From the NCBI GenBank assembly GCA_002007315.1, contig LNZQ01000208.1, forward strand, positions 6,784 to 41,397: a DNA stretch of 34,614 bases, written 5' to 3'. Below the pieces are notes generated by a model, which saw nothing but the letters and a program-made list of their open reading frames with translations, did no database searches and was not told where the DNA came from. This document shows, in pieces, positions 12,183 through 31,369 of the stretch. Source of the DNA: Epulopiscium sp. Nele67-Bin004. Lineage in GTDB: Bacteria > Bacillota_A > Clostridia > Lachnospirales > Cellulosilyticaceae. The position numbers were made by a program, and so were the translations under genes. Within the stretch, counting starts at the first letter, position 1. Every line of letters starts with the position of its first letter.

Positions 12183-14165
12183 TTACTTAACTATGAAATT
12201 TTGCATTTGCGTTTGTAAGTTATCTGCTTGTGTTTCAAGCTCTTCACTTATCGCCACATTTTGTTGCGAAATCGCTGCATTGTGTGCAATTTCTGTTGTA
12301 AGCGTTTCGGTATCTTTCATAATTTGTTGCAACGCATCACGTTGTCCCAAAGCATTATCCCTAATCGCCTTAAACATATTTGCTGTATCGCTACTAGCCC
12401 CCATAATTTGTTCCAATGATTTAGTTGTAAGCGACACCATTTTTTCACCAGTTTCTACACTTTCAAGACTAGTATTTATTAACGTGTATATATCTTGAAC
12501 GATTTCCGAAGTTTTAGTTGATAGTTCACGAACTTCAGTTGCTACTATCGTAAATCCTCGTCCTGCTTCTCCTGCTCGTGCAGCCTCAATACTTGCGTTT
12601 AGTGCAAGTAAGTTTGTTTGGCTCGCAATTTCTTCAATAGATTTAATAACTTGTAATATCTCTTGAGTTGACGTGCTAATACTTCCCATCGCCTCAACCA
12701 TTTCGTCTGCAACTTGTTTGCTGTCGTCAGCCTTTTTATTCATATCAGTTATAACACCATAACCTTTGTCTATTGACTCAATGTTATCTATTATATCAGT
12801 TGCAACATTTGTAGTATTATCTTTAAAAGTCATTAATAAAGATGCTTGTACTTCACTTGCACTCGCAAGCTCTTTAGCAGAATGATTTATATCAACCGCT
12901 GCTTGACCAACTCTTATTGTTGAAGCTGTTGTATCTGATAATAAAGCTTTTAGCTTGTCTGATATAGAAATTAAAGAAACTTTTATCGCATTAAATTCCC
13001 CAACATAATCTCCTGTTGGAACTGGTCTAAAGTCACCCTCAGAATAAGTTGTAAGTACTTCTGAAATTTCTCCGATATAACTATTTAAGTTTTTTGAAAC
13101 AACTTGTAATGAATTTGTAAGCATTTCTATTTCCACACTATTTTGAGCTAAGTGAGAAACATCACTTTTCAAGTTACCTTTACTTATTTCAGTTAATACA
13201 TTCGCAACATCTGAAACAGGCGATATATAAGTCGCAACAAATCTACGAATAATTACAAAACTTATAACCATTGATGCTATCATCATAAGTGCACCGATAA
13301 TTATTTGAGTAATTACAGCGTTAATTGTATAGCGGTAAGGATAGTTTGTAATAACTTTCCAACTTGTGTTTCCAACTTCACTGTAAGCTGCATAAACTTT
13401 TGTTCCATAAATATTGTTAGCCATAGCAATTGTGTTTGTCCCTGCTTTTTCTACGTTGCTATAATCAGCTTTATTAGTGTCAAGTAGATTAACAGTTCTT
13501 TGTGTGTTTGGGTGATAATTTTCGTCTGGGTGAATTAAAATATCAAAATCATCACTAACGACAAATGTGTATAACCCATCGCTTTCTTTTAGACCGTCAA
13601 TAAGGTCTTTTAAACTTGAAAGCGTTACGTCCATACCTAAAACAGCACCAACGCCACCAGTTCTATTACTAACTTTTGTCGCAAGTGTTACAACCATATC
13701 ACCTGTCGACGCATCTATATAAGGTTCTGTAATAATTGTGCTATTAGAGTTAACAGCATCTATATACCATGACCTAACAGTTGGGTCAAAACTTGGGTCA
13801 GACCAACCGCTCGAGTGTGCCCACCCCTTAGCTGGAGTTGCAAGATATATGTCTATAACTCCTGCTATATTTTGTTTAGAATTTGAAAAATAACCTTCTA
13901 AATTATTCAAATCTGTGTAACTTTGATTAAATTCAAGCTCTGTTGCAATTGTGTTTATAAAAGCAAGTCTTTCATCCATCCAAGCATCAAATCTAGCATC
14001 AGCTATATCTGTAATCCCAAGCACTCGTGTGTGAGCTTGAGAAATCATAAGCCGTGAAATATCAATACCTTTCCACACTACATTAATAAATACTAAAACA
14101 ATTATTAGGCTGTACACTATCAAATTTATTTTTGATGAAAGTGTGCTCCTTGACTTCATTTGCAT
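12183..14165 (-). CDS. Methyl-accepting chemotaxis protein with dCache sensor (copy 1)
   Basis: A 660-residue transmembrane chemoreceptor. It has TM1 at about residues 13-31, an extracellular double Cache domain (35-280), TM2 at 283-305, HAMP at about 306-360, and a signalling domain with the hairpin tip [20 protein letters not shown]. The ligand pocket shows R131-x-W133-Y134, Y149 and D179, spaced almost as in the amino-acid-binding dCache motif; the tyrosine expected five residues before the Arg is a Phe. An amino-acid ligand is therefore a fair guess. AAGGGG precedes ATG 14165 (an in-frame ATG two codons later is also possible). The neighbouring gene is a full-length paralogue on the same strand, 104 bp upstream, so the pair arose by tandem duplication. 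It signals through CheA/CheW to the flagella or other outputs. Confidence 0.95.
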   Translation of the reverse strand: MQMKSRSTLSSKINLIVYSLIIVLVFINVVWKGIDISRLMISQAHTRVLGITDIADARFDAWMDERLAFINTIATELEFNQSYTDLNNLEGYFSNSKQNIAGVIDIYLATPAKGWAHSSGWSDPSFDPTVRSWYIDAVNSNSTIITEPYIDASTGDMVVTLATKVSNRTGGVGAVLGMDVTLSSLKDLIDGLKESDGLYTFVVSDDFDILIHPDENYHPNTQRTVNLLDTNKADYSNVEKAGTNTIAMANNIYGTKVYAAYSEVGNTSWKVITNYPYRYTINAVITQIIIGALMMIASMVISFVIIRRFVATYISPVSDVANVLTEISKGNLKSDVSHLAQNSVEIEMLTNSLQVVSKNLNSYIGEISEVLTTYSEGDFRPVPTGDYVGEFNAIKVSLISISDKLKALLSDTTASTIRVGQAAVDINHSAKELASASEVQASLLMTFKDNTTNVATDIIDNIESIDKGYGVITDMNKKADDSKQVADEMVEAMGSISTSTQEILQVIKSIEEIASQTNLLALNASIEAARAGEAGRGFTIVATEVRELSTKTSEIVQDIYTLINTSLESVETGEKMVSLTTKSLEQIMGASSDTANMFKAIRDNALGQRDALQQIMKDTETLTTEIAHNAAISQQNVAISEELETQADNLQTQMQNFIVK

Positions 14166-14269: not shown

Positions 14270-16252
14270 TTACTCTATTATGAAGTGTTCCATTTTTGAC
14301 TCAAGATGACTTGCCTGTGCTGCAAGTTCTTCACTTATAGCTAAGTTCTCTTGAGATATAAATGTGTTTTTACCAATCTCTTTAGCTAATGCGTCAGTAT
14401 CTTCTTCAATATGTTCCAATGCTTCACGTTGTCGCATTGCGTTATCTCTAACTTCTTTTGAAATATTTGCTGTTTTATAACTAGCTTCAATGATTTCTTC
14501 AAGTGCATGAGCAGTTAAATTAACCATTTCTTCGCCCTCTTTAACACTTTCTAAATTCAATTTAATCATTTTGTAAATATTTTTAACAACTTCGGTAGTT
14601 TGAGTTGACAATTCACGTACTTCAGATGCAACAACAGCAAAACCACGACCCGACTCCCCTGCGTGTGCTGCCTCTATAGTAGCGTTTAGTGCAAGTAAGT
14701 TTGTTTGTCTAGCTATTTCTTCAATTGATTCACTAATTTGTTGTATCTCTGACGTTGAAACGCTAATTCTACCCATCGCATCAACCATTTTGTGTGCAAG
14801 TTCTTTACTATTATCTGCTTTTTGTGCCATCTCTTTTACAGTGTTGTAAGACTCTTCTATTGACTCTAAGTTATCTATTACATCGTGAGTAACTTTTGTA
14901 GTATTCTCTTTAAAATTTTCTAACAATGCTGATTGTTCTATCGAAACATTTGCTAAATAAGTTGCCGAATTTGCAATTATTAGCGATGCACCTGCAACGT
15001 CATGTGTTGAGTCCGTAGTGTCTGAAAGCAACGCTTTTAATTTATCACTTATAGAAATTAATGATACTCTTATAGTATCAAACTCTCCCATATAGCTTTG
15101 TTGTGGCACAGGTCTAAAGTCGCCCTCCGCATACGTTCCAAGTATGTCAGATATTTCAGTAATATAACTTGATATATTTTTTTCAACTCGTTCTAGCGAG
15201 TCAACTAGTATTTCCATTTCTTCACTATTTTTAGTAATTCCAGCTATATCAACATGAAAATTACCAGCACTTATTAACAACAACGCATCTGCAATATCAT
15301 GAACAGGCCATATATAAAGTTTTACAAACTTTTGTATAACTATTACACTTATTGCAATAGATACTATCATCATAAACAATCCTATAATAGTTTCAAATAA
15401 CAATGTGTTTGTCGTGTTTTTAGTTGGATAGTTTACGATAATTTTCCAACCTGTTTGTGGAACTCGGTTAAATGCTGCAAACACATTTTCGTTATATATA
15501 TTTTTTGATACAGCCACTGTGTGCTCACCTGCCGAAATTGTAGCACTATAATCTGCTTTTGTATCGTATAAATTCGTTGTTTTTAGTATACTCGGAGTTA
15601 AACTAGAATCAGGGTGCATTATTATGTTGCCATTTGTGTCTATAACAAATGCGTATAACCCGTTATCAGTCACAGTAGCTTGTATGACATCTGCCAAGTT
15701 GTGTAACGATATGTTCATAGCTACAACACCAACTATGTTATCTCTTTCATTAACTACTTTTTTTGCAAATGTTACAACCATTTCATTTAGTGCCGTATCA
15801 AAATACGGTTCTGTAACAATTACTTCATCTGCATCAGTTGCCGCCACATACCAATTTGCACTTGATATATCAAATGTTGCATCTGGTTTCCAATATTCCG
15901 AATGTATCCAGTTGTTATTTATTGAACTAGCCATATACAGAGCCGAAACACCTTCAATATCATTTTTAATATCTACTAAATAATCTTGTAACTTATCCCA
16001 ATCTTTATAGCTTTCATAATACGTTATTTCGTGTGCTAATGAATTTAAAAATGTAGTTTTTTCATTAATCCACGTTTCAAACTTTTGTGCTGAAATATCG
16101 TTGACTGATAACACCATCGTATGTGCTTGTGCCATCATCAGTCGTGATGTATCATACACTTTCCAACCAGTATTGATTACCATTAGAGTAATGATTAGTA
16201 CGTATACTCGGTAACGTAATTTTGTTGCTAATTTAGGCATATTATTTTTCAT
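14270..16252 (-). CDS. Methyl-accepting chemotaxis protein with dCache sensor (copy 2)
   Basis: Same length (660 residues) and domain order as the downstream copy. The cytoplasmic part is well conserved (tip [26 protein letters not shown], and the shared stretches [17 protein letters not shown] and EGDFRPVP). The sensor domain has diverged: at the amino-acid pocket the Arg is replaced (SANWY, A132), W134, Y135 and Y150 remain, and the Asp is Asn (VAMNISL, N180). It should therefore recognise something different from copy 1. A run of seven or more G provides the ribosome binding site before ATG 16252. Confidence 0.95.
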
Positions 16253-23770: not shown

Positions 23771-23947
23771 TCATTGTTCTCTCTCTTTAGGAAGTTGCAC
23801 AACGTTTGGCTGCACTTTGTTTAACGCTGTTTGTTTTATCTTATTAGTATCAATTCCGTCAAGCAAATTTGGGTCATCAGTGTCAATGTCTAGTAAATCC
23901 TCAATATCATCAACATCAATATCATCAAATATATCTGTTAGTTTCAT
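23771..23947 (-). pseudogene. Truncated anti-sigma-like protein (58 aa, cytoplasmic domain only)
   Basis: The peptide starts at ATG 23947, overlapping the sigma factor stop as ATGA. It is nearly identical to the first 56 residues of the full anti-sigma-like protein (MKLTDIFDDIDVDDI and LLDGIDTNKIKQ), then ends with EREQ and a stop just before the membrane segment would begin. It is thus either a decayed copy or a soluble version of the sigma-binding domain. The overlap with the sigma gene is kept, so it is probably still translated. Confidence 0.7.
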
Positions 23948-24480
23948 AGCCTGCACCCCTCCAATACTTGTTGTAATTTTTTCTTGCCACGAGATATTTT
24001 CGTATGCACCGTATTTTCTGGTAGTCCAAGATACGTCGCGATGTCTGCTATTTTTTCCATAAAAAAGTATCGGCGTAAAAATATTTCTTTGTCTGGCTGT
24101 GGCAATGTGTCGATAGCCGAAATTATTTGCGAGTTAACTTCTTTAGTCATAAGCTCCGTTTCTGGTGTGTTCGTATCTATAATAACGTCGTCCGTGTCGT
24201 CAATAAGTTCTATTGATGTTTGGCGTAGCTTGTTTAGCACTGCATTTCTAGTTATTTTTGCGATGTATGCTTTAAGCTTATCGGGGATAATACTTCCCCG
24301 AACTTGCCACATTTTAACGAACACATCAGACGTAAGCTCCTCAACGTCTTCATTTGATAGTTGCGTGCCTGCAATTTTTCGTATAACTGCAATAACGTAT
24401 TTTGTATATTCATCGATAAGTTTTTCATAGCAATTGATGTCGCCTTTTATCAGCCCCTCGGCAATTTGAATGTCTGTCAT
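23944..24480 (-). CDS. ECF-type RNA polymerase sigma factor
   Basis: 178 residues with region 2 at about 10-80 (CYEKLIDEYTKYVIAVIRKI, DVFVKMWQVRG) and region 4 at about 115-175 (LPQPDKEIFLRRYFFMEKIADIATYLGLPENTVHTKISRGKKKL, a helix-turn-helix for the -35 box). An acidic linker lies between them. GGAGGAGAGG precedes ATG 24480. The upstream anti-sigma-like gene ends 19 bp before it, and a truncated anti-sigma copy is coupled downstream. It should direct transcription in response to an envelope or external signal sensed by the anti-sigma partner. Confidence 0.92.
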   Translation of the reverse strand: MTDIQIAEGLIKGDINCYEKLIDEYTKYVIAVIRKIAGTQLSNEDVEELTSDVFVKMWQVRGSIIPDKLKAYIAKITRNAVLNKLRQTSIELIDDTDDVIIDTNTPETELMTKEVNSQIISAIDTLPQPDKEIFLRRYFFMEKIADIATYLGLPENTVHTKISRGKKKLQQVLEGCRL

Positions 24481-24499
24481 ACCCCTCTCCTCCTGCTAT

Positions 24500-25663
24500 T
24501 TATTTCAATACGATTTCGTGCCCCTCAATAATTACTGAATACAACTCCTCCATCGGTATAAATTGTACGTCTGTTGTCCCAAAGTTCATTTGTAGTTCTG
24601 AGTCTTCAACCACATATTTATACGAACCTAAAAGTTCTCTATGGCTAACAGCGCTATACGTTCCCTCAAGTATTGTGCCATCTACCAATTTTAACGATAC
24701 GTCATGCCATTGATTTCCAACAGCGATATCATCAAGCGTCAAAGAAACGTTTATGCCCATTTTTGATACACTTACACGGTCAACTGTACTTGTATCTAGT
24801 TTTAAGTTTGGAAATGCCTCAACTATTTCCATATCCGTTGATAAGTGCAACGTCCCAGTCCAGCTTTGTTCAACAATAGTTTCACGTAAGTAGCGATTTG
24901 TTGCCAAATACTCAAAATCTTCAGTAACAGCTTCCAATTCATACATATCGCTTATTATCGTTGGTGGCTCAAGCTCAGATAACATATATGGCGACTGTTC
25001 TTCAAGTAAATACGTGGCAACAAGATTTTCAATAGTGATGTTGACTTCTTCGTCTATAACTTCTGTGCTATAAAAGTTGCACACTAGCATAAGTTGTGAA
25101 AAATCTTCTGATAACTCAGCGCTATATCCATACATGTTTATACTGTCAGACTCAATGTCAAAAATATCAAAGTTTATGCTACTAATATATTTGCCGTTGT
25201 GTACAAGTCTGTCTGCGTCATAATCCATTTCAAAAAATGGTGTGCCGTCCTCTTTTTCAAACACAAGCAAAAACATTCCTGTTTGGTCTGTAACTATCGT
25301 TTCTGCTCCAACTAACACAATGTCGCCTTCTTTTTCCGACACAAAATCTATCGTTTGTATGTCCTCATACACATAACCTGTGTCCCCCTCAAATGTGCTC
25401 ATAAAATGTGGTAAGTTGTTTGCTAAAACTGCCGTGCTAGTTAATGCTAATGCTGCTACTAATAATAAATTTCTAATTTTCATTTTTCCTCGTCCTCTCT
25501 GTTTTGGAAGCTGCACAACGTTTGACTGTGCTTTGTTTAATGCCACTTGTTTTATTTTATTTGTGTCAATTCCATCAAGCAAATCTGGGTCATCAGTATC
25601 TATGTCAAGTAAATCTCCGATGTCATCAACATCAATATCATCAAATATATCTGTTAGTTTCAT
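24500..25663 (-). CDS. Membrane-anchored anti-sigma-like protein
   Basis: 387 residues. An acidic cytoplasmic segment (1-60, MKLTDIFDDIDVDDI) leads to a single membrane helix (about 63-82, IRNLLLVAALALTSTAVLA) and a large extracellular beta-rich region of about 300 residues. This layout fits anti-sigma factors of the RsgI/DUF4179 type, in which the inner part holds the ECF sigma and the outer part senses a signal. I do not recognise a specific ligand domain. Its ATG overlaps the stop of the truncated sigma gene (ATGA), so translation is coupled. The complete sigma gene follows after 19 bp. Confidence 0.75.
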   Translation of the reverse strand: MKLTDIFDDIDVDDIGDLLDIDTDDPDLLDGIDTNKIKQVALNKAQSNVVQLPKQRGRGKMKIRNLLLVAALALTSTAVLANNLPHFMSTFEGDTGYVYEDIQTIDFVSEKEGDIVLVGAETIVTDQTGMFLLVFEKEDGTPFFEMDYDADRLVHNGKYISSINFDIFDIESDSINMYGYSAELSEDFSQLMLVCNFYSTEVIDEEVNITIENLVATYLLEEQSPYMLSELEPPTIISDMYELEAVTEDFEYLATNRYLRETIVEQSWTGTLHLSTDMEIVEAFPNLKLDTSTVDRVSVSKMGINVSLTLDDIAVGNQWHDVSLKLVDGTILEGTYSAVSHRELLGSYKYVVEDSELQMNFGTTDVQFIPMEELYSVIIEGHEIVLK

Positions 25664-25935
25664 AAACCCCCCTCCCCTATCTGCTCAAATTTGTTTATAA
25701 CGATAGATTTTGTTATTTTTGCGATGCATATTTTAAGTTTGTCAGGGATAATGTTTTCCCGAACTTGCCATATCGCTACAAAAACGTCAGTTGTAAGTTG
25801 TTCGATATCTGTATTTGATAGTTTTGTGCCTGCCAGTTTTCGTATAATTGCAATGACATATGTTGTGTATTCATCAATAAGTTTTTCATAACAATGAACA
25901 TCGCCTTTTATAAGTCCATATGCAATATCTGTCAT
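25660..25935 (-). pseudogene. Truncated ECF sigma factor (region 2 only, 91 aa)
   Basis: The first 84 or so residues match the full sigma factor at 23944-24480 closely (GLIKGD-x-x-CYEKLIDEYT-x-YVIA-IRK-AGT-LSN). After NKFEQIGEGGL it stops, so the linker and region 4 are gone. The final GEGGL corresponds to the EGCRL end of the full protein, and the ATGA overlap with the anti-sigma gene is intact. An internal deletion therefore removed about 87 codons. It cannot recognise a -35 box, but might still bind the anti-sigma protein or core polymerase. AAAGGAGAGG precedes ATG 25935. Confidence 0.75.
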
Positions 25936-26003: not shown

Positions 26004-26033
26004 CAAAAAAATAGCAACCATTAAGATTGCTAT
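26004..26033 (-). terminator. Terminator of the helicase-nuclease-LexA gene
   Basis: ATAGCAA (26011-26017) pairs with TTGCTAT (26027-26033), followed on the minus strand by seven T. The stem overlaps the stop codon of the helicase gene. Confidence 0.75.
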
Positions 26034-28390
26034 TGCGTTTGTTTAATAATTCCTATTAGTTTGCCTTGCACAGAAAAGTCGCCATCAATTATAGATATCG
26101 GTTCAAAATCGTCATTCGCACTAAGTAGCAACACAAGTCCACCTGTTTGAACAACTCGTTTTAGCGTTGCCGAACCATTGTATACAACTACGCCTATCTC
26201 GTTGTTTTGCACCGATTGTGAGCTATCAACAACGACATAATCGCCATCATCAATGTTTGCATCAATCATGCTATCGCCTTTAACTTGCAATATATACAAA
26301 TTTTCGGCTGTTTTTATATACTTAGACGGAAGTTTAAACGTCCCTTTATCATCATCAAGTATTTCTATTGGAATTCCTGCTGCAATATCGGCATATATTC
26401 GCAGTTTCGTAAGTTCGTCCTCAACGACGTTATCCTCATTTAAAATTTCTTGCGTGTGCGTATCTTTAATAAATTCGTGTTCTCTAAACGTCTTAACATC
26501 TATATATTTGTAGTGTTCAAGCCCTTTCGTTAAAATTGTTTTATCACATTTTGGTATGTCGCTAATGTAGTTCATATCTTTATCTATAAATATAATGTGG
26601 CGTCCATTTGTGGCAACACCGTATTTGCAATCACTAGCGTGCATGTAAGATTTAAGCTGTCTAACAGCGTCCATTATATCGACATCTTTATTTTTCGTTT
26701 CAACTATAATGTGTGGTTCTCCCGTTTTTTGATTGATAACAGCTACGTCAGCTTTGCAAGCTTTTGAGCCAATGTTAATTTTATACTCAATTTTAACAAC
26801 CTCTTTCGGATAGTCATAATTAGTTATAAGTTCATTTATAATCCACTGTCTAACAACTTCTTCTTTTGTGTGGATATCAGCAATTTCTTCCTTATAATAG
26901 TAGTTGTCTGGATTTATAGAGTGCAACGCCCTAATACGTGAATTTATATTCATGCACAAAAATTTATTGTCTATTTGAGAAATAAACTTTGACGGTGTGC
27001 CCGACGAAAACATATATAGCTCTTTTTTCGCACGAGTCATTGCCACATAAAAAAGTTTTCGTTCGCCAACTTCTTCTTCAAGCAATTCTTCATAACTTAG
27101 CCCATCTTGTTTGTGCGGAATTATATTTTCGTTCAGGTCTATAATTATAACAACTTTAAACTCAAGCCCTTTAATCGAATGCATCGTGAGCAATTTAATT
27201 GAATCCTCGTTAAATTTCATCTCTTTTGCCACCATCTCACACAAAATGTTTTGCCCTATCAAACAATTTTTCAGTTGCTCAAGCGACGTTTTACGTTTAG
27301 CTACAATTGCAATATCTCTAAGTTTATAATCAAGCTGTTTTATAAGCTTAATCACCGCAAGTTGCTGGTCAGTATAACTGTTGTATCCACGATATACGGG
27401 GTATGAGCCGTGTTGAGATAGCAGAGTTGGTGTTATAAAATTATCGTCTTTAATTAGCTCTTTATCATAGTGGAGCAAACTATATGCACAGCGAGAAATT
27501 TCAGTTGTTGTGCGATAATTTTTATTTAATTTGTATGAGCGATTTGCCCCAATGTCATAGCCAATACTTCGGTATGTGCGATTTTTTACAAGCCAAGCTT
27601 GGGGGTATATACTTTGAGCAACGTCCATAATTAGCCACACCGAACAAGTTTTTGAGTTGTTGCTCAACCTGCTTATTATATCAAATTGAACTTTTGTTAA
27701 ATCTTGTGCTTCGTCTATAATAATGTGTTCATACTTAAAAATTTTGTTATTGTTATTGTTCATATATTGTAACGCTAAAATGTTTGTATCAATCCCATCA
27801 ACGCTATTTTTCTGGCTTAAAATTTCACCAATTGTATCTTTTAAAAAATATATTGCTTCCCTAGCCTCAGAATTTCTCGTTAGACGATAACCACCGTCCC
27901 CACTCATACGCCCAATACGCTCAACGTCTTGATATTGCTCAAGTGTATTGTACCCACAACCTTTTATCCACTTGATTTCATCGAGTAGAAATTTATGATA
28001 ATTTTGATGCAAGTATCTACAATTTGGGTATTTTGATTGTGCAATTTGTAATGCCTCGTTAAATGAGGGGGTGTCATTCCACAATGTTTTTAATTCTGGA
28101 TGTCCTGCTTTAAAATATCCATATGAAATGCTATCTATGTTTTTGATATCAACTACGCTTTTTGCTGTAGGTATCGTCATATTAATCATTTGTTCGATAT
28201 AGTTGCTTAACGACTTGTTGTATGTCACAAACAGTATTTTTCCTTTAGGTGACTGCTCGGCAAGCAACTTAACTCTTTCAACACCAACTGTAGTTTTTCC
28301 AGACCCTGCAATGCCACGAATTACAGCGTGACCACTTAGAGGGGACTCCACAATTTTTTGTTGTTCTAAATTTAGTGCCAAAATTTCCAC
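26030..28390 (-). CDS. SF1 helicase - HsdR-type nuclease - LexA/S24 autoprotease fusion
   Basis: A 786-residue protein counted from GTG 28390; TTG 28381 is the better-spaced start after AAGGAA and would remove three residues. Residues 1-470 are a UvrD/Rep-like helicase: Walker A GIAGSGKTT 26-34, DEAQD 226-230, HSIKGLE 404-410, LFYVAMTRAK 446-455. Residues 505-605 are an HsdR N-terminal-type nuclease domain with D548 and E564-x-K566. Residues 660-786 are a LexA/UmuD-type S24 domain: cleavage-site-like A671-G672 in AAGIP, Ser707 in GDSM and Lys744. The distances (36 and 37 residues) match LexA and UmuD, so self-cleavage looks possible. It could be a DNA-damage-triggered repair or phage-defence enzyme. 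No partner gene adjoins. Its own terminator follows. Confidence 0.9.
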   Translation of the reverse strand: MEILALNLEQQKIVESPLSGHAVIRGIAGSGKTTVGVERVKLLAEQSPKGKILFVTYNKSLSNYIEQMINMTIPTAKSVVDIKNIDSISYGYFKAGHPELKTLWNDTPSFNEALQIAQSKYPNCRYLHQNYHKFLLDEIKWIKGCGYNTLEQYQDVERIGRMSGDGGYRLTRNSEAREAIYFLKDTIGEILSQKNSVDGIDTNILALQYMNNNNNKIFKYEHIIIDEAQDLTKVQFDIISRLSNNSKTCSVWLIMDVAQSIYPQAWLVKNRTYRSIGYDIGANRSYKLNKNYRTTTEISRCAYSLLHYDKELIKDDNFITPTLLSQHGSYPVYRGYNSYTDQQLAVIKLIKQLDYKLRDIAIVAKRKTSLEQLKNCLIGQNILCEMVAKEMKFNEDSIKLLTMHSIKGLEFKVVIIIDLNENIIPHKQDGLSYEELLEEEVGERKLFYVAMTRAKKELYMFSSGTPSKFISQIDNKFLCMNINSRIRALHSINPDNYYYKEEIADIHTKEEVVRQWIINELITNYDYPKEVVKIEYKINIGSKACKADVAVINQKTGEPHIIVETKNKDVDIMDAVRQLKSYMHASDCKYGVATNGRHIIFIDKDMNYISDIPKCDKTILTKGLEHYKYIDVKTFREHEFIKDTHTQEILNEDNVVEDELTKLRIYADIAAGIPIEILDDDKGTFKLPSKYIKTAENLYILQVKGDSMIDANIDDGDYVVVDSSQSVQNNEIGVVVYNGSATLKRVVQTGGLVLLLSANDDFEPISIIDGDFSVQGKLIGIIKQTQ

Positions 28391-28535
28391 TTCCTTAACA
28401 TTTTTTCTTTTTAATTTAATATTATATCATATAATCCGATAAAGTAATACTATTCTTTCTACTTCACCAATCAATAATGATTTTTGTCATTGTAAATTTT
28501 GGTAAATAATACCAATTTTGTCGTAATATATAATA

Positions 28536-28564
28536 TTGTGTACCCCACCCCCTTGTGGTATAAT
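28536..28564 (+). promoter_or_regulatory. Promoter of the SLH lectin-like gene
   Basis: TTGTGT (28536-28541), a 17-bp C-rich spacer and TATAAT (28559-28564), 37 bp before ATG 28601. AAGGAGAG is the ribosome binding site. Confidence 0.65.
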
Positions 28565-28600
28565 ATATGCATAGATTACAATAATAAGGAGAGAATTTTT

Positions 28601-31369
28601 ATGAAATTAGGTACTAAATTACGGAAACGGCTTGCATTTTTGCTAGCCTCTAGTATAATTTTTGCATCTACATCATCAATTAATAGTGCAAATTATACAC
28701 GGCAACAAACTAATTCTACTATAATTGACGTTGGATATATACAAATTAACGAAAATGAACTTTATTATTTTCCAGATTTAACTGTAAATATCCCGAACAA
28801 CAACAAAGTGTTTGGATTAAACCTTTTTTATGATGACGCAAACAAAGATGGCGTTGACGGAATATTATCACTTGTAGACCCCCAAATCGAAGGTCTTACG
28901 TATACAAAAATGACTAACTTAGACGGCGAGCAAGGTTCTGTGTTATATGCTTTTTCAGGTGGAATTGACGCCCAAACAGCCCAAGAGTTTTTGCGAGCAC
29001 TTCAATTTGATATTACAGGGAACACCCCTCTAAATATCATCGTTGACCAAAACGAAGTTGTTTTGCCAGAAAGCGAAAACGAAATTTATTTTACAAAATA
29101 TATACCTGAGGACGACCCAGAAAACGTTCACTATTATTTTTATGTGAATGAACTTGTTGATTGGGACACTGCTTATGAGCTTGCCAAAAGCTATCGCTAT
29201 ATGGGTATGAAAGGTTATCTAGCAACGATTACGACACCTGGAGAAGATCAACTGTTGACTTCAATATCAAAACTTGGTGGTTGGACATCTGGTATACGTA
29301 TAGACCCTACATACCTTTTCGGCGAAAACGGAGTTGATAGCGATACAATATCGGCAAATTTGACGGCAAAAACTGGGATTTTTAATTCTGGGCTTGGTCA
29401 TAAAAGCAATAGCGGTCACGTTCAACTTATTGATCGTTTTTATTGGGCGGCAGGGCCTGAGGCGATTGCCCAAAAAGATGATATTGGCGATATGACCAAA
29501 AACAACTGGGGCTTTTACAACTATGACGGAACTAACGGCACAACGTCGTCGGCAATTCGCTGGGATAACGGATATGAGCCGTACCAAAATTTTACTAAAG
29601 CAAATGGCGAAAACGAGCCTAACGATGGTGGGACTGTTGCAACCAAAGAATATATCGTACAAGTTAACTGGGGTGGGACAAACGTTTTTGCGTGGAACGA
29701 CCTTGCCGCAAAAGAACTCTGGATTAGGGGGTACTTCGTTGAAATGTCACCTTATGAGGGGGGCGTAGTTCCAGGATATGAAGATAATATTATTGAAACT
29801 AACATTAATATTATAATGGAAGATTTGCCAGTTTATGACCCTGATTATCAGCCGACGGAGTTTCCAGATGAACTGCCAACGCCTGAGCTTGACGGCATGG
29901 TAGACGATGTTTTTCCTGACGAACTGCCAACACCTGAGCTTGATGGCATGGTAGACGATGTTTTTCCTAACGAACTGCCAACGCCTGAACTTGATGAGGC
30001 TGGTGAAGTGTTGTTTCCAGACGTGTTGCCAACGCCTGATCTTGACGGCTTAGACGATGTTTTCTCAGACGTGTTGCCAATGCCTGAGCTTGATGGGACT
30101 ATAGATGATGTTTTCCCAGACGTGTTGCCAATGCCTGAACTTGATGGGACTATAGATGATGTTTTCCCAGACGTGTTGCCAATGCCTGAACTTGACGGGC
30201 TAGACGACGTTTTGTATCCAGATATGTTGCCGACTCCAGAGCTTGACGGGCTAGACGACGTTTTGTATCCAGATGTGTTGCCAACTCCAGAACTTGATGG
30301 ACTAGACGACGTTTTGTATCCAGACGTGTTGCCGACTCCAGAGCTTGACGGACTAGACGACGTTTTGTTCCCAGACGAACTCCCAATGCCAGAGTTATTT
30401 CCTTATGTAGAGCCTGACAATGACGATGATAAAGCCGAAGATGACAACTCTAGTGACGATAATACTGCAGAAACTGAAAATAATACTAACTATGAGATTA
30501 AAGATAAAAATGACATTATAGAACAAGATGAACCAATTATTTTAGAGCTTGAAGCACGTATGTCACGTATGCTTTCTGGATTTGAAATTGACATAATATC
30601 TGATTGGGACTTTGAAATTGACATTATTGAGACAATATTAAATGCTAAGGTTGACCTTGAACTAATTGACGCTATAATTGATGCTGGCATCGAACCTGAA
30701 ATAGTTGAACAATTAGTGTGCGGTCATATCGACGCTGAACAATTTAAACAATTATGTAACGATTATGAAATAAACATTATATATGAAGAACCGTACATTT
30801 TTGGATATCCAGATTATACTTTTATGACGGATAACAATTTGACACGTGCCGAAGTTGTTGCGATTGTGTCACGTTTGCACAAAGTAGAAATGGACGAAAC
30901 TGCAACTTATACTTCATCGTTTAATGACGTGTATCCAACAAACTGGCACGCAAATAGTATAGGATTTGTCGAACAGCAAGGTATTTTGAACGGCTACAAA
31001 GACGGTTCGTTTAAACCTAACGTCGCTATTACTCGTGCCGAATTTATCGCCCTAACTGCTCCACTTGGGGTTGCAACCGAGCCAAAAGTTGATTATTTCC
31101 CATTTGATGATGTTTCGCAATCACATTGGGCTTATGAATCACTGCATATTGCATATTCACAAGGGTGGGTCGCTGGCTATGAAGATGGTAAGTATCGCCC
31201 AGACGAGGCTATAACTCGTGATGAGGCTGTTGCTATCATTAATCGTATTATAGATAGACGACCAAATCCGATGTTTTTTGACGTAATATTTGATGATATG
31301 CATGAAAGCCACTGGGCATATGAAGATGTAATTTTGTCAAGCAATTATTATATTAGATTAGACAAATAA
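28601..31369 (+). CDS. Secreted C-type-lectin-like protein with repeat stalk and SLH anchor
   Basis: ATG 28601 is chosen because AAGGAG and a signal peptide (LAFLLASSIIFASTSSINSA) follow the expected pattern; the longer frame from 28499 would start upstream of the promoter. The 922-residue protein has an N-terminal beta domain (about 35-170). Next is a C-type lectin-like domain (about 177-385; GYLATITTPGEDQLL at the start, GENEPNDGG, and AWNDL...GYFVEM at the end). A stalk of ten 17-residue repeats follows (423-601, LPTPELDGLDDV pattern), then an acidic linker and a C-terminal region with S-layer-homology motifs (FNDV...TRAEF, FDDV...TRDEA, FDDM). SLH modules hold the protein to the wall polymer, the stalk extends it, and the lectin domain binds a sugar or protein ligand outside. 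A role in adhesion to host or food particles is inferred. Confidence 0.88.
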   Translation: MKLGTKLRKRLAFLLASSIIFASTSSINSANYTRQQTNSTIIDVGYIQINENELYYFPDLTVNIPNNNKVFGLNLFYDDANKDGVDGILSLVDPQIEGLTYTKMTNLDGEQGSVLYAFSGGIDAQTAQEFLRALQFDITGNTPLNIIVDQNEVVLPESENEIYFTKYIPEDDPENVHYYFYVNELVDWDTAYELAKSYRYMGMKGYLATITTPGEDQLLTSISKLGGWTSGIRIDPTYLFGENGVDSDTISANLTAKTGIFNSGLGHKSNSGHVQLIDRFYWAAGPEAIAQKDDIGDMTKNNWGFYNYDGTNGTTSSAIRWDNGYEPYQNFTKANGENEPNDGGTVATKEYIVQVNWGGTNVFAWNDLAAKELWIRGYFVEMSPYEGGVVPGYEDNIIETNINIIMEDLPVYDPDYQPTEFPDELPTPELDGMVDDVFPDELPTPELDGMVDDVFPNELPTPELDEAGEVLFPDVLPTPDLDGLDDVFSDVLPMPELDGTIDDVFPDVLPMPELDGTIDDVFPDVLPMPELDGLDDVLYPDMLPTPELDGLDDVLYPDVLPTPELDGLDDVLYPDVLPTPELDGLDDVLFPDELPMPELFPYVEPDNDDDKAEDDNSSDDNTAETENNTNYEIKDKNDIIEQDEPIILELEARMSRMLSGFEIDIISDWDFEIDIIETILNAKVDLELIDAIIDAGIEPEIVEQLVCGHIDAEQFKQLCNDYEINIIYEEPYIFGYPDYTFMTDNNLTRAEVVAIVSRLHKVEMDETATYTSSFNDVYPTNWHANSIGFVEQQGILNGYKDGSFKPNVAITRAEFIALTAPLGVATEPKVDYFPFDDVSQSHWAYESLHIAYSQGWVAGYEDGKYRPDEAITRDEAVAIINRIIDRRPNPMFFDVIFDDMHESHWAYEDVILSSNYYIRLDK
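29867..30403 (+). repeat. Ten-plus tandem 51-bp coding repeats (Pro-Glu-Leu-Asp stalk)
   Basis: Ten units (one is 48 bp) plus a partial last one code for D-x-LP-x-PELDG-x-DDV-x-YP. Neighbouring units are almost identical in DNA (units 1-2, 5-6, 8-10), indicating recent expansion in blocks. Repeat number is probably variable between strains. Confidence 0.9.

Follow-up and report, generated by a model that had tools for sequence, protein, structure and literature searches.

A UvrD-like helicase and HsdR-type nuclease fused to a predicted LexA-type self-cleaving domain, and a Clostridium branch that keeps the putative switch without the nuclease

We analyzed a gene on the minus strand of a 34,614-nucleotide window from Epulopiscium sp. 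Nele67-Bin004 (contig LNZQ01000208.1; coordinates are positions in this window unless another locus is named). The gene is a single unbroken open reading frame (ORF) of 786 codons (26030-28390) that joins a UvrD-like helicase, an HsdR-type nuclease and an S24 peptidase domain, as the initial annotation had claimed, and all of its Pfam domains score above their gathering thresholds. Residues are numbered here from the listed GTG start, which defines a product of 786 amino acids (aa; 26030..28390). The real start is probably TTG 28381 rather than this GTG, because relatives begin at residue 4 of the listed protein, from which their N-termini align, and because a Shine-Dalgarno-like AAGGAAG (28390..28396, minus strand), overlapping the GTG, lies 8 nt before the TTG. 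The database entry of the window's own protein (P0002) has 783 aa, the same length as the TTG-start product. The annotated ORF was confirmed and its start is the part that would change, all residue numbers then being 3 lower.

All features of the protein are encoded on the minus strand. The helicase, of the UvrD-like superfamily 1A (SF1A) type, occupies residues 4-480 (26951..28381), with Pfam UvrD-helicase at 6-262 and the best stretch of UvrD_C at 389-461, both above gathering scores. It carries a Walker A motif GIAGSGKT (residues 26-33, 28292..28315; G26 and A28-T33 invariant in 46 aligned rows) and a motif II DEAQD (226-230, 27701..27715; D226, E227, Q229 and D230 invariant in 46 rows). 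The HsdR_N-type nuclease domain follows at residues 509-613 (26552..26866; HSDR_N_2, E = 1.1e-24, above its gathering score), where D548 (26747-26749) and E564-T-K566 (26693..26701, invariant in 46 aligned rows) form one site. A junction with predicted strands (614-664, 26399..26551) leads to the LexA-type S24 autoprotease domain (665-779, 26054..26398; Peptidase_S24 PF00717, E = 3e-27, 95.1 bits against a cut-off of 23.3). The predicted cleavage site A671-G672 (26375..26380), where cutting would make Ile-Ala-Ala the new end of the N-terminal part, precedes the catalytic residues S707 (26270..26272) and K744 (26159..26161), both invariant in 46 aligned rows. The nuclease and protease residues, from D548 to K744, are where the initial annotation had placed them, with spacings of 36 from Ala-Gly to Ser and 37 from Ser to Lys.

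LexA is the best family and structure match of this tail, whose best sequence matches in the PDB are LexA C-terminal domains. The Ser-Lys dyad, the Ala-Gly site and the 36/37 spacing liken the fusion to LexA, UmuD and lambda CI; the spacing in UmuD is 36/37, and its own cleavage site is Cys-Gly. In LexA, RecA triggers a cut at Ala84-Gly85 near Ser119 and Lys156, with spacings of 35 and 37, according to excerpts of PMC3834820. The fusion differs from LexA, UmuD and lambda CI in the attached helicase-nuclease, in lacking a DNA-binding head and in that no SOS box was found. In particular, the LexA N-terminal winged helix is absent: the alignment to the LexA model starts only at model position 68, and the N-terminus is UvrD. 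We predicted two structures, one of a long and one of a short form (described below). For residues 1-483 of the long form, the range covered by the comparison, UvrD-type helicases are the top solved folds; residues 673-677, just past the cleavage site, have a predicted local distance difference test score (pLDDT) below 50, and no S24 entry appears among the top 50 Foldseek matches of this model.

To describe the family we took the best 120 of 1085 homologues found at E ≤ 0.001 among 7997 candidates scored. The S24 domain lies in the same chain in 118/120; the other two (P0034 and P0035) keep Ala-Gly and then break off or diverge inside S24. Of 37 fusion ORFs from genome contigs, 29 exceed 780 aa and cover all domains. 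An assembly join between two genes near residues 640-660, which the initial annotation had considered, is excluded because the best homologues and these contig ORFs carry the complete fusion. The protein is a real family with many database copies, not an oddity of this genome, and it is widely distributed. Where database names are shown they read 'S24 family peptidase', 'repressor LexA' or 'DNA 3'-5' helicase', and the closest named relatives among the best 120 matches are Niameybacter and Cellulosilyticaceae.

The catalytic residues are close to invariant. K32, D226, E227, D548, E564, K566 and A671 are present in all 121 aligned rows, G672 in 119, S707 in 120 and K744 in 118. In the 119 long rows left after excluding P0034 and P0035 by length, A671 is found in 119, G672 in 117, S707 in 119 and K744 in 118 (the 121-row and 119-row counts include the window twice, as P0001 and P0002). 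Helicase motifs I, II, III, V and VI are present in these long rows (K32, D226, E227, D256, Q259, H404, G408 and R453 in 118-119/119), and D226, E227, Q229 and D230 are found in 119/119. The 29 full-length contig proteins, which span Desulfosarcina, Planococcus, Lachnospiraceae and an Aminicenantes bin, are 28-41% identical to the window protein by best segment; as aligned, all 29 have A671, G672 and K744 and 28 have S707 and the three nuclease residues, the sole exception being L031, in which the nuclease site and the serine are both lost. Mean identity to the window is 44% for the helicase, 45% for the nuclease, 43% for S24 and 26% for the junction. We pooled stop-to-stop ORFs and database proteins into 187 intact long rows, 181 of them distinct by their last 600 residues, and 155 of these 181 have the 36/37 spacing. 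Homologues mostly lacking Ser, Lys or Ala-Gly would have spoken against the annotated protease; most retain all of them, and the prediction that it is active is well supported by sequence.

Scanning whole genomes with a LexA model revealed a set of ORFs, about 490 aa long, in which the N-terminal helicase half is followed by S24 (for example L156:1489-2991, L152:943-2442, L155:1958-3406 and L157:2256-3713). A protein search gave 470 matches; the best 120 were taken and five of them (293-447 aa) dropped, leaving 115 rows of 470-560 aa. The named short forms among these best 120 come from Clostridium or Clostridiaceae, except for one partial entry labelled as another phylum, and they are often called LexA in databases, yet have no LexA head. 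The Walker A lysine is kept in 114/115 rows and the motif II glutamate in only 31/115; most rows have another residue in place of the motif III glutamine and of the motif IV arginine, and all 115 show gaps at motif VI and at the nuclease residues (13 short rows scored as 'nuclease changed' in a pooled alignment, which we take as alignment noise). A671, G672, S707, K744 and the 36/37 spacing, by contrast, are kept in 115/115. Because the helicase and nuclease residues decayed while the protease residues stayed, the protease site is, as far as sequence can tell, under its own selection in this clade.

The short-form model (pLDDT 83.4, predicted template modelling score 0.61) matches UvrD, and its tail matches LexA structures. 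It aligns with the RecA-bound LexA 8gms_A (template modelling (TM) score to target 0.83, root-mean-square deviation (rmsd) 2.4, 122 columns) and with the LexA mutant 1jhe_A (TM 0.84, rmsd 2.2, 122 columns); against 8trg, 142 columns align with an rmsd of 9.5. A counterpart of the junction seems to be kept, with strands predicted in both models. On a tree rooted at the midpoint only, 19 short rows form one side of a branch with an SH-like approximate likelihood ratio test support of 100, and the missing catalytic residues speak for the short form as the derived one. An S24 tree of 58 rows, in which many supports are weak, needs two changes between long and short fusions and LexA or other S24 rows. 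The S24 tail was probably gained once, since the odd row is the long-branched L035 (5681-8107), a highly diverged fusion that falls, by its S24 domain, among other S24 proteins and could possibly be a second, independent fusion.

The opposite loss, of S24, was found in six natural genes (L206-L211), all from genomes of the order of Clostridium zeae. Three have lost the nuclease residues and three the whole nuclease domain, while helicase motifs I, II and VI are kept (motif V reads GLQ instead of GLE in L207 and L208); on the tree they represent two losses. L031, with its dead nuclease site and no serine, may be a third such loss. Among the candidates inspected, none combined an intact nuclease site with the absence of S24 in an undamaged gene. 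The frame of L228 is split and the following ORF carries an intact S24, the S24 of L032 lies in another frame, and L021, L058 and L227 end at contig edges. L023, with no S24 site by motif in the locus, was taken as a broken gene. In every clean loss of S24 the nuclease is gone too; this pattern comes from a small number of independent events and does not amount to proof.

We then asked how the gene relates to the SOS response. GAACnnnnGTTY is the motif used for clostridial LexA in the excerpted text of PMC4234289. Exact matches near the gene start, with looser scans also run, gave an SOS box in 0/59 long-form upstream regions (53 distinct, window included) and 0/6 short-form regions, and near the start of 18/20 host lexA genes; shuffling predicts 0.7, 0.06 and 0.5 boxes, respectively. 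The fusion as an SOS-regulated gene is unsupported by these 53 distinct long and 6 short regions. Neither is it supported as a replacement of the host LexA, since a full-length LexA is encoded separately in 20/22 host genomes (the fusion is the only LexA-model match in G015 and G017). Taken alone, the S24 part exceeds the NCBI LexA cut-off (110.95 bits) in 11/22 hosts, reaching 136 bits. Because no SOS box was found and most hosts have their own LexA, the most likely target of S24 control is the protein that carries the domain; S24 has the appearance of a post-translational switch maintained on this enzyme by selection. The lack of a detected SOS box fits an enzyme made in advance.

Compared with known systems, the helicase is compact (about 480 aa) next to UvrD, PcrA and Rep, and has a nuclease and S24 added. 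It is not UvrD, PcrA or Rep proper: four NCBIfam models of these proteins give 75-100 bits against cut-offs of 911-1144, the best being 100.5 bits against an equivalog cut-off of 965. The HsdR_N-type D...ExK nuclease, the motor and nuclease in one chain and the proposed off-switch after damage are shared with HsdR. The HsdR motor belongs to superfamily 2, whereas that of the fusion belongs to superfamily 1, and cleavage of the fusion would be by the enzyme itself. HsdM and HsdS had no match among 8 further window proteins (Pfam) or 10 (PADLOC), which are part of the window ORFs. The helicase part also matches Gabija GajB (E = 3e-32), with no match to the OLD-type GajA among the 10 window proteins, and the PADLOC candidate C3a187 (NERD+UvrD; E = 6e-37), from which the fusion differs by its S24 tail and by a nuclease on the opposite side of the helicase from what that name suggests. 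Searches of the open PMC literature, which omits most subscription papers, returned no title or abstract opening that describes the helicase-nuclease-S24 architecture. It is a known switch on an unexpected enzyme, accompanied by a switch-only branch; new here are the short nuclease-less clade, the S24-less genes with dead nucleases and the finding of no SOS box.

Presence of the gene is patchy across the sampled groups. Matches occur in 21/398 genomes of one phylum sample (15 at full length) and in 21/151 of one family, both counts including seed genomes, in 1/198 genomes of another phylum (the seed genome itself), and the long form in 2/8 genomes of one genus sample. In the order of Clostridium zeae, 91/225 genomes match the long-form model; at least 29 have a full-span long form (two with one stop), at least 63 a short form and at least 10 both. 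These are lower bounds, with short forms counted by ORF length and matched range and at most four candidates scored per genome; the short form of G001 (L155) was missed at that threshold. Both halves were matched in 37 of the 63 short-form genomes, the N-terminal half only in 20 and the S24 part only in 6. It is unlikely that the short form serves the long one as an obligate antitoxin, given 63 genomes with short, 29 with long and 10 with both. A phage origin was also rejected: none of the 43 phage records with partial matches covers 80% of the protein (the best 20 were inspected), and at least 70 viral-contig loci match, the 70 listed reaching no further than query residue 515. Among 746 plasmid records with a match, one (Ilyobacter) covers 80% of the protein.

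No conserved operon partner was found, the largest shared neighbour cluster comprising 6/38 loci at mixed positions. We scanned neighbours of 110-899 aa within three genes of the fusion with PADLOC (128 of 140, the 12 left out including all of L032, L034 and L062; 30 of the 128 were rescanned singly) along with 97 control proteins from 20 stretches in 12 of the same genomes. The neighbours matched 110 PADLOC families and the controls 13, a contrast that overstates defence enrichment because few proteins yield most of the matches (one reverse transcriptase matches 34 families and one PsyrT 15). Clear defence neighbours were found at three loci. In Desulfosarcina alkanivorans (L017:6391-9795), matches to the PsyrT (E = 2e-291) and PsyrA (7e-135) models lie directly upstream of the fusion. 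At L023 (7860-9632), a DRT-type reverse transcriptase (RT-Protease XI model, E = 1e-154) adjoins a fusion cut before S24, with an MzaE-like gene also nearby, and a type IV restriction enzyme model is matched near L025. Weaker cases are L014 (Old, E = 3e-25) and the Clostridium zeae copy, which has near it a GIY-YIG nuclease joined to a Schlafen-type helicase (Pfam; L001:6651-8279); a JetD match (E = 8.5e-68) among the neighbours was not traced to a locus. The defence-island context that the initial annotation had proposed to survey is present within three genes in a few relatives and is not seen at the window, where none of the 10 proteins scanned is a defence neighbour of note and two give weak mad3-type matches, as control stretches also do.

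From the architecture, its conservation, the nuclease-S24 coupling, the separate LexA and the absence of a detected SOS box, all read from sequence, we infer a post-translational switch whose steps carry different confidence. The fusion would be a single-gene, ATP-driven helicase-nuclease acting on DNA, with S24 as its switch. RecA-coated single-stranded DNA, arising from damage, stalled forks or invading DNA, would hold S24 in its cleavable form; Ser and Lys would then cut Ala671-Gly672 and detach the 115-residue S24 core. Self-cleavage itself appears quite probable from the retained catalytic residues, and RecA as its trigger is a reasonably good bet by analogy with LexA. Cleavage could possibly turn the enzyme off, turn it on or release it from RecA-coated DNA; given cleavage and a RecA trigger, off seems somewhat the better supported direction. 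The helicase-nuclease left behind would end in Ile-Ala-Ala, like C-termini that ClpXP-type proteases remove, so the enzyme would be switched off and the cell's own repair intermediates would not be shredded. We tentatively favour this OFF switch, a kind of built-in restriction alleviation in which RecA filaments trigger a self-cleavage that removes the enzyme, at a little short of an even chance for the whole. Off is preferred because the new Ile/Val-Ala-Ala end resembles a ClpXP signal and because restriction alleviation of HsdR is a precedent for damage-induced removal of a motor. C-termini of the xAA type are ClpXP signals (the ssrA tag and the E. coli LexA fragment), and in E. coli ClpXP destroys HsdR after damage. 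The predicted new C-terminus is IAA or VAA in 169/181 distinct intact long rows and 115/115 short ones; the 21 host LexA proteins end at the cut in VTA or ITA (13), VAA (6), VPA (1) or VSA (1).

Several observations weigh against this reading. The IAA end may reflect only a preference of the protease, as 6/21 host LexA proteins also have VAA. L023 keeps its nuclease site without S24, though it is apparently a broken gene. Coupling does not run both ways, as L198 retains S24 with a V in place of E564 and the entire short clade has S24 and no nuclease. Five rows, representing four or five proteins (L188, L197, L199, P0066 and P0106), have an altered scissile site (AD, SG or AS; Ala-Asp or Ser-Gly in L188, L197 and L199) with Ser and Lys intact. 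Finally, the S24 part of the window protein scores 89.7 bits, under the LexA cut-off, and in roughly half of the 22 hosts the fusion likewise falls short of it.

The nuclease-S24 coupling would fit an ON switch too. Under this reading an S24-linked dimer, for instance, would keep the intact protein inactive until the RecA-triggered cut releases the working helicase-nuclease to break down DNA of phage or cell, as an effector of abortive infection. An accessory and patchy gene, the adjoining PsyrTA, reverse transcriptase and type IV restriction matches, and the dead nucleases of the S24-less forms, which suit the toxicity of an unleashed nuclease, all agree with this. We regard an ON switch as rather unlikely: with it, everyday DNA damage would be lethal, the Ile-Ala-Ala terminus exposed by the cut resembles a signal for degradation, and clear defence genes were located beside a few loci only, with none in the set of 10 proteins scanned from the window. 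We give still less credence to S24 as a RecA-independent or purely structural module, serving dimerisation or fired by another signal: IrvR, an S24 protein, is reported in PMC7101444 as an exception to RecA control, but a structural module would not keep Ser, Lys and Ala-Gly near-invariant in two functionally different subfamilies. Least probable is a UvrD/PcrA-like anti-recombinase editing RecA filaments, its S24 timing release or destruction on RecA contact as repair housekeeping with no role in defence, which would suit the UvrD-type fold and a lone gene with no neighbour cluster beyond 6/38 loci but accords poorly with a patchy distribution and a nuclease.

Returning to the OFF switch, the long form may be a self-limiting, constitutive helicase-nuclease that reads RecA filaments. 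In Clostridium it would have given rise to another class of damage sensor, a pseudo-helicase that retains the Walker A lysine and the switch but has lost the remainder of the motor; we offer this combined picture with low confidence. Known S24 switches act in gene control and mutagenesis, being carried by repressors and polymerase subunits. A widely conserved S24 tail on a DNA-cutting motor would imply that RecA filaments also directly switch a DNA-attacking enzyme, a simple and testable answer to how cells shield repair intermediates from such enzymes.

An intrinsic-terminator-like hairpin with a T run lies at the stop codon of the fusion gene (26010..26034, minus strand; sequence scan). Two such sites occur in 3.3 kb against 1.6 expected by chance, and this one is backed by its gene-end position only. 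On the same strand, 3' of the gene, three genes occupy 23944-25935: the last is sigma-70-like with regions 2 and 4, and the others are a 91 aa ORF resembling a sigma N-terminal piece and a 387 aa protein, both with no Pfam match. The host is probably a spore-former, because SpoIIE, an SLH protein and a dipicolinate synthase domain (Pfam) are found around the gene. The SLH-domain protein (28499-31369) has many Pro/Asp-rich repeats of the PELPTPELDG type ahead of its SLH part. Two adjacent minus-strand ORFs (12183-14165 and 14270-16252), both of exactly 660 aa, are possibly a tandem duplication.

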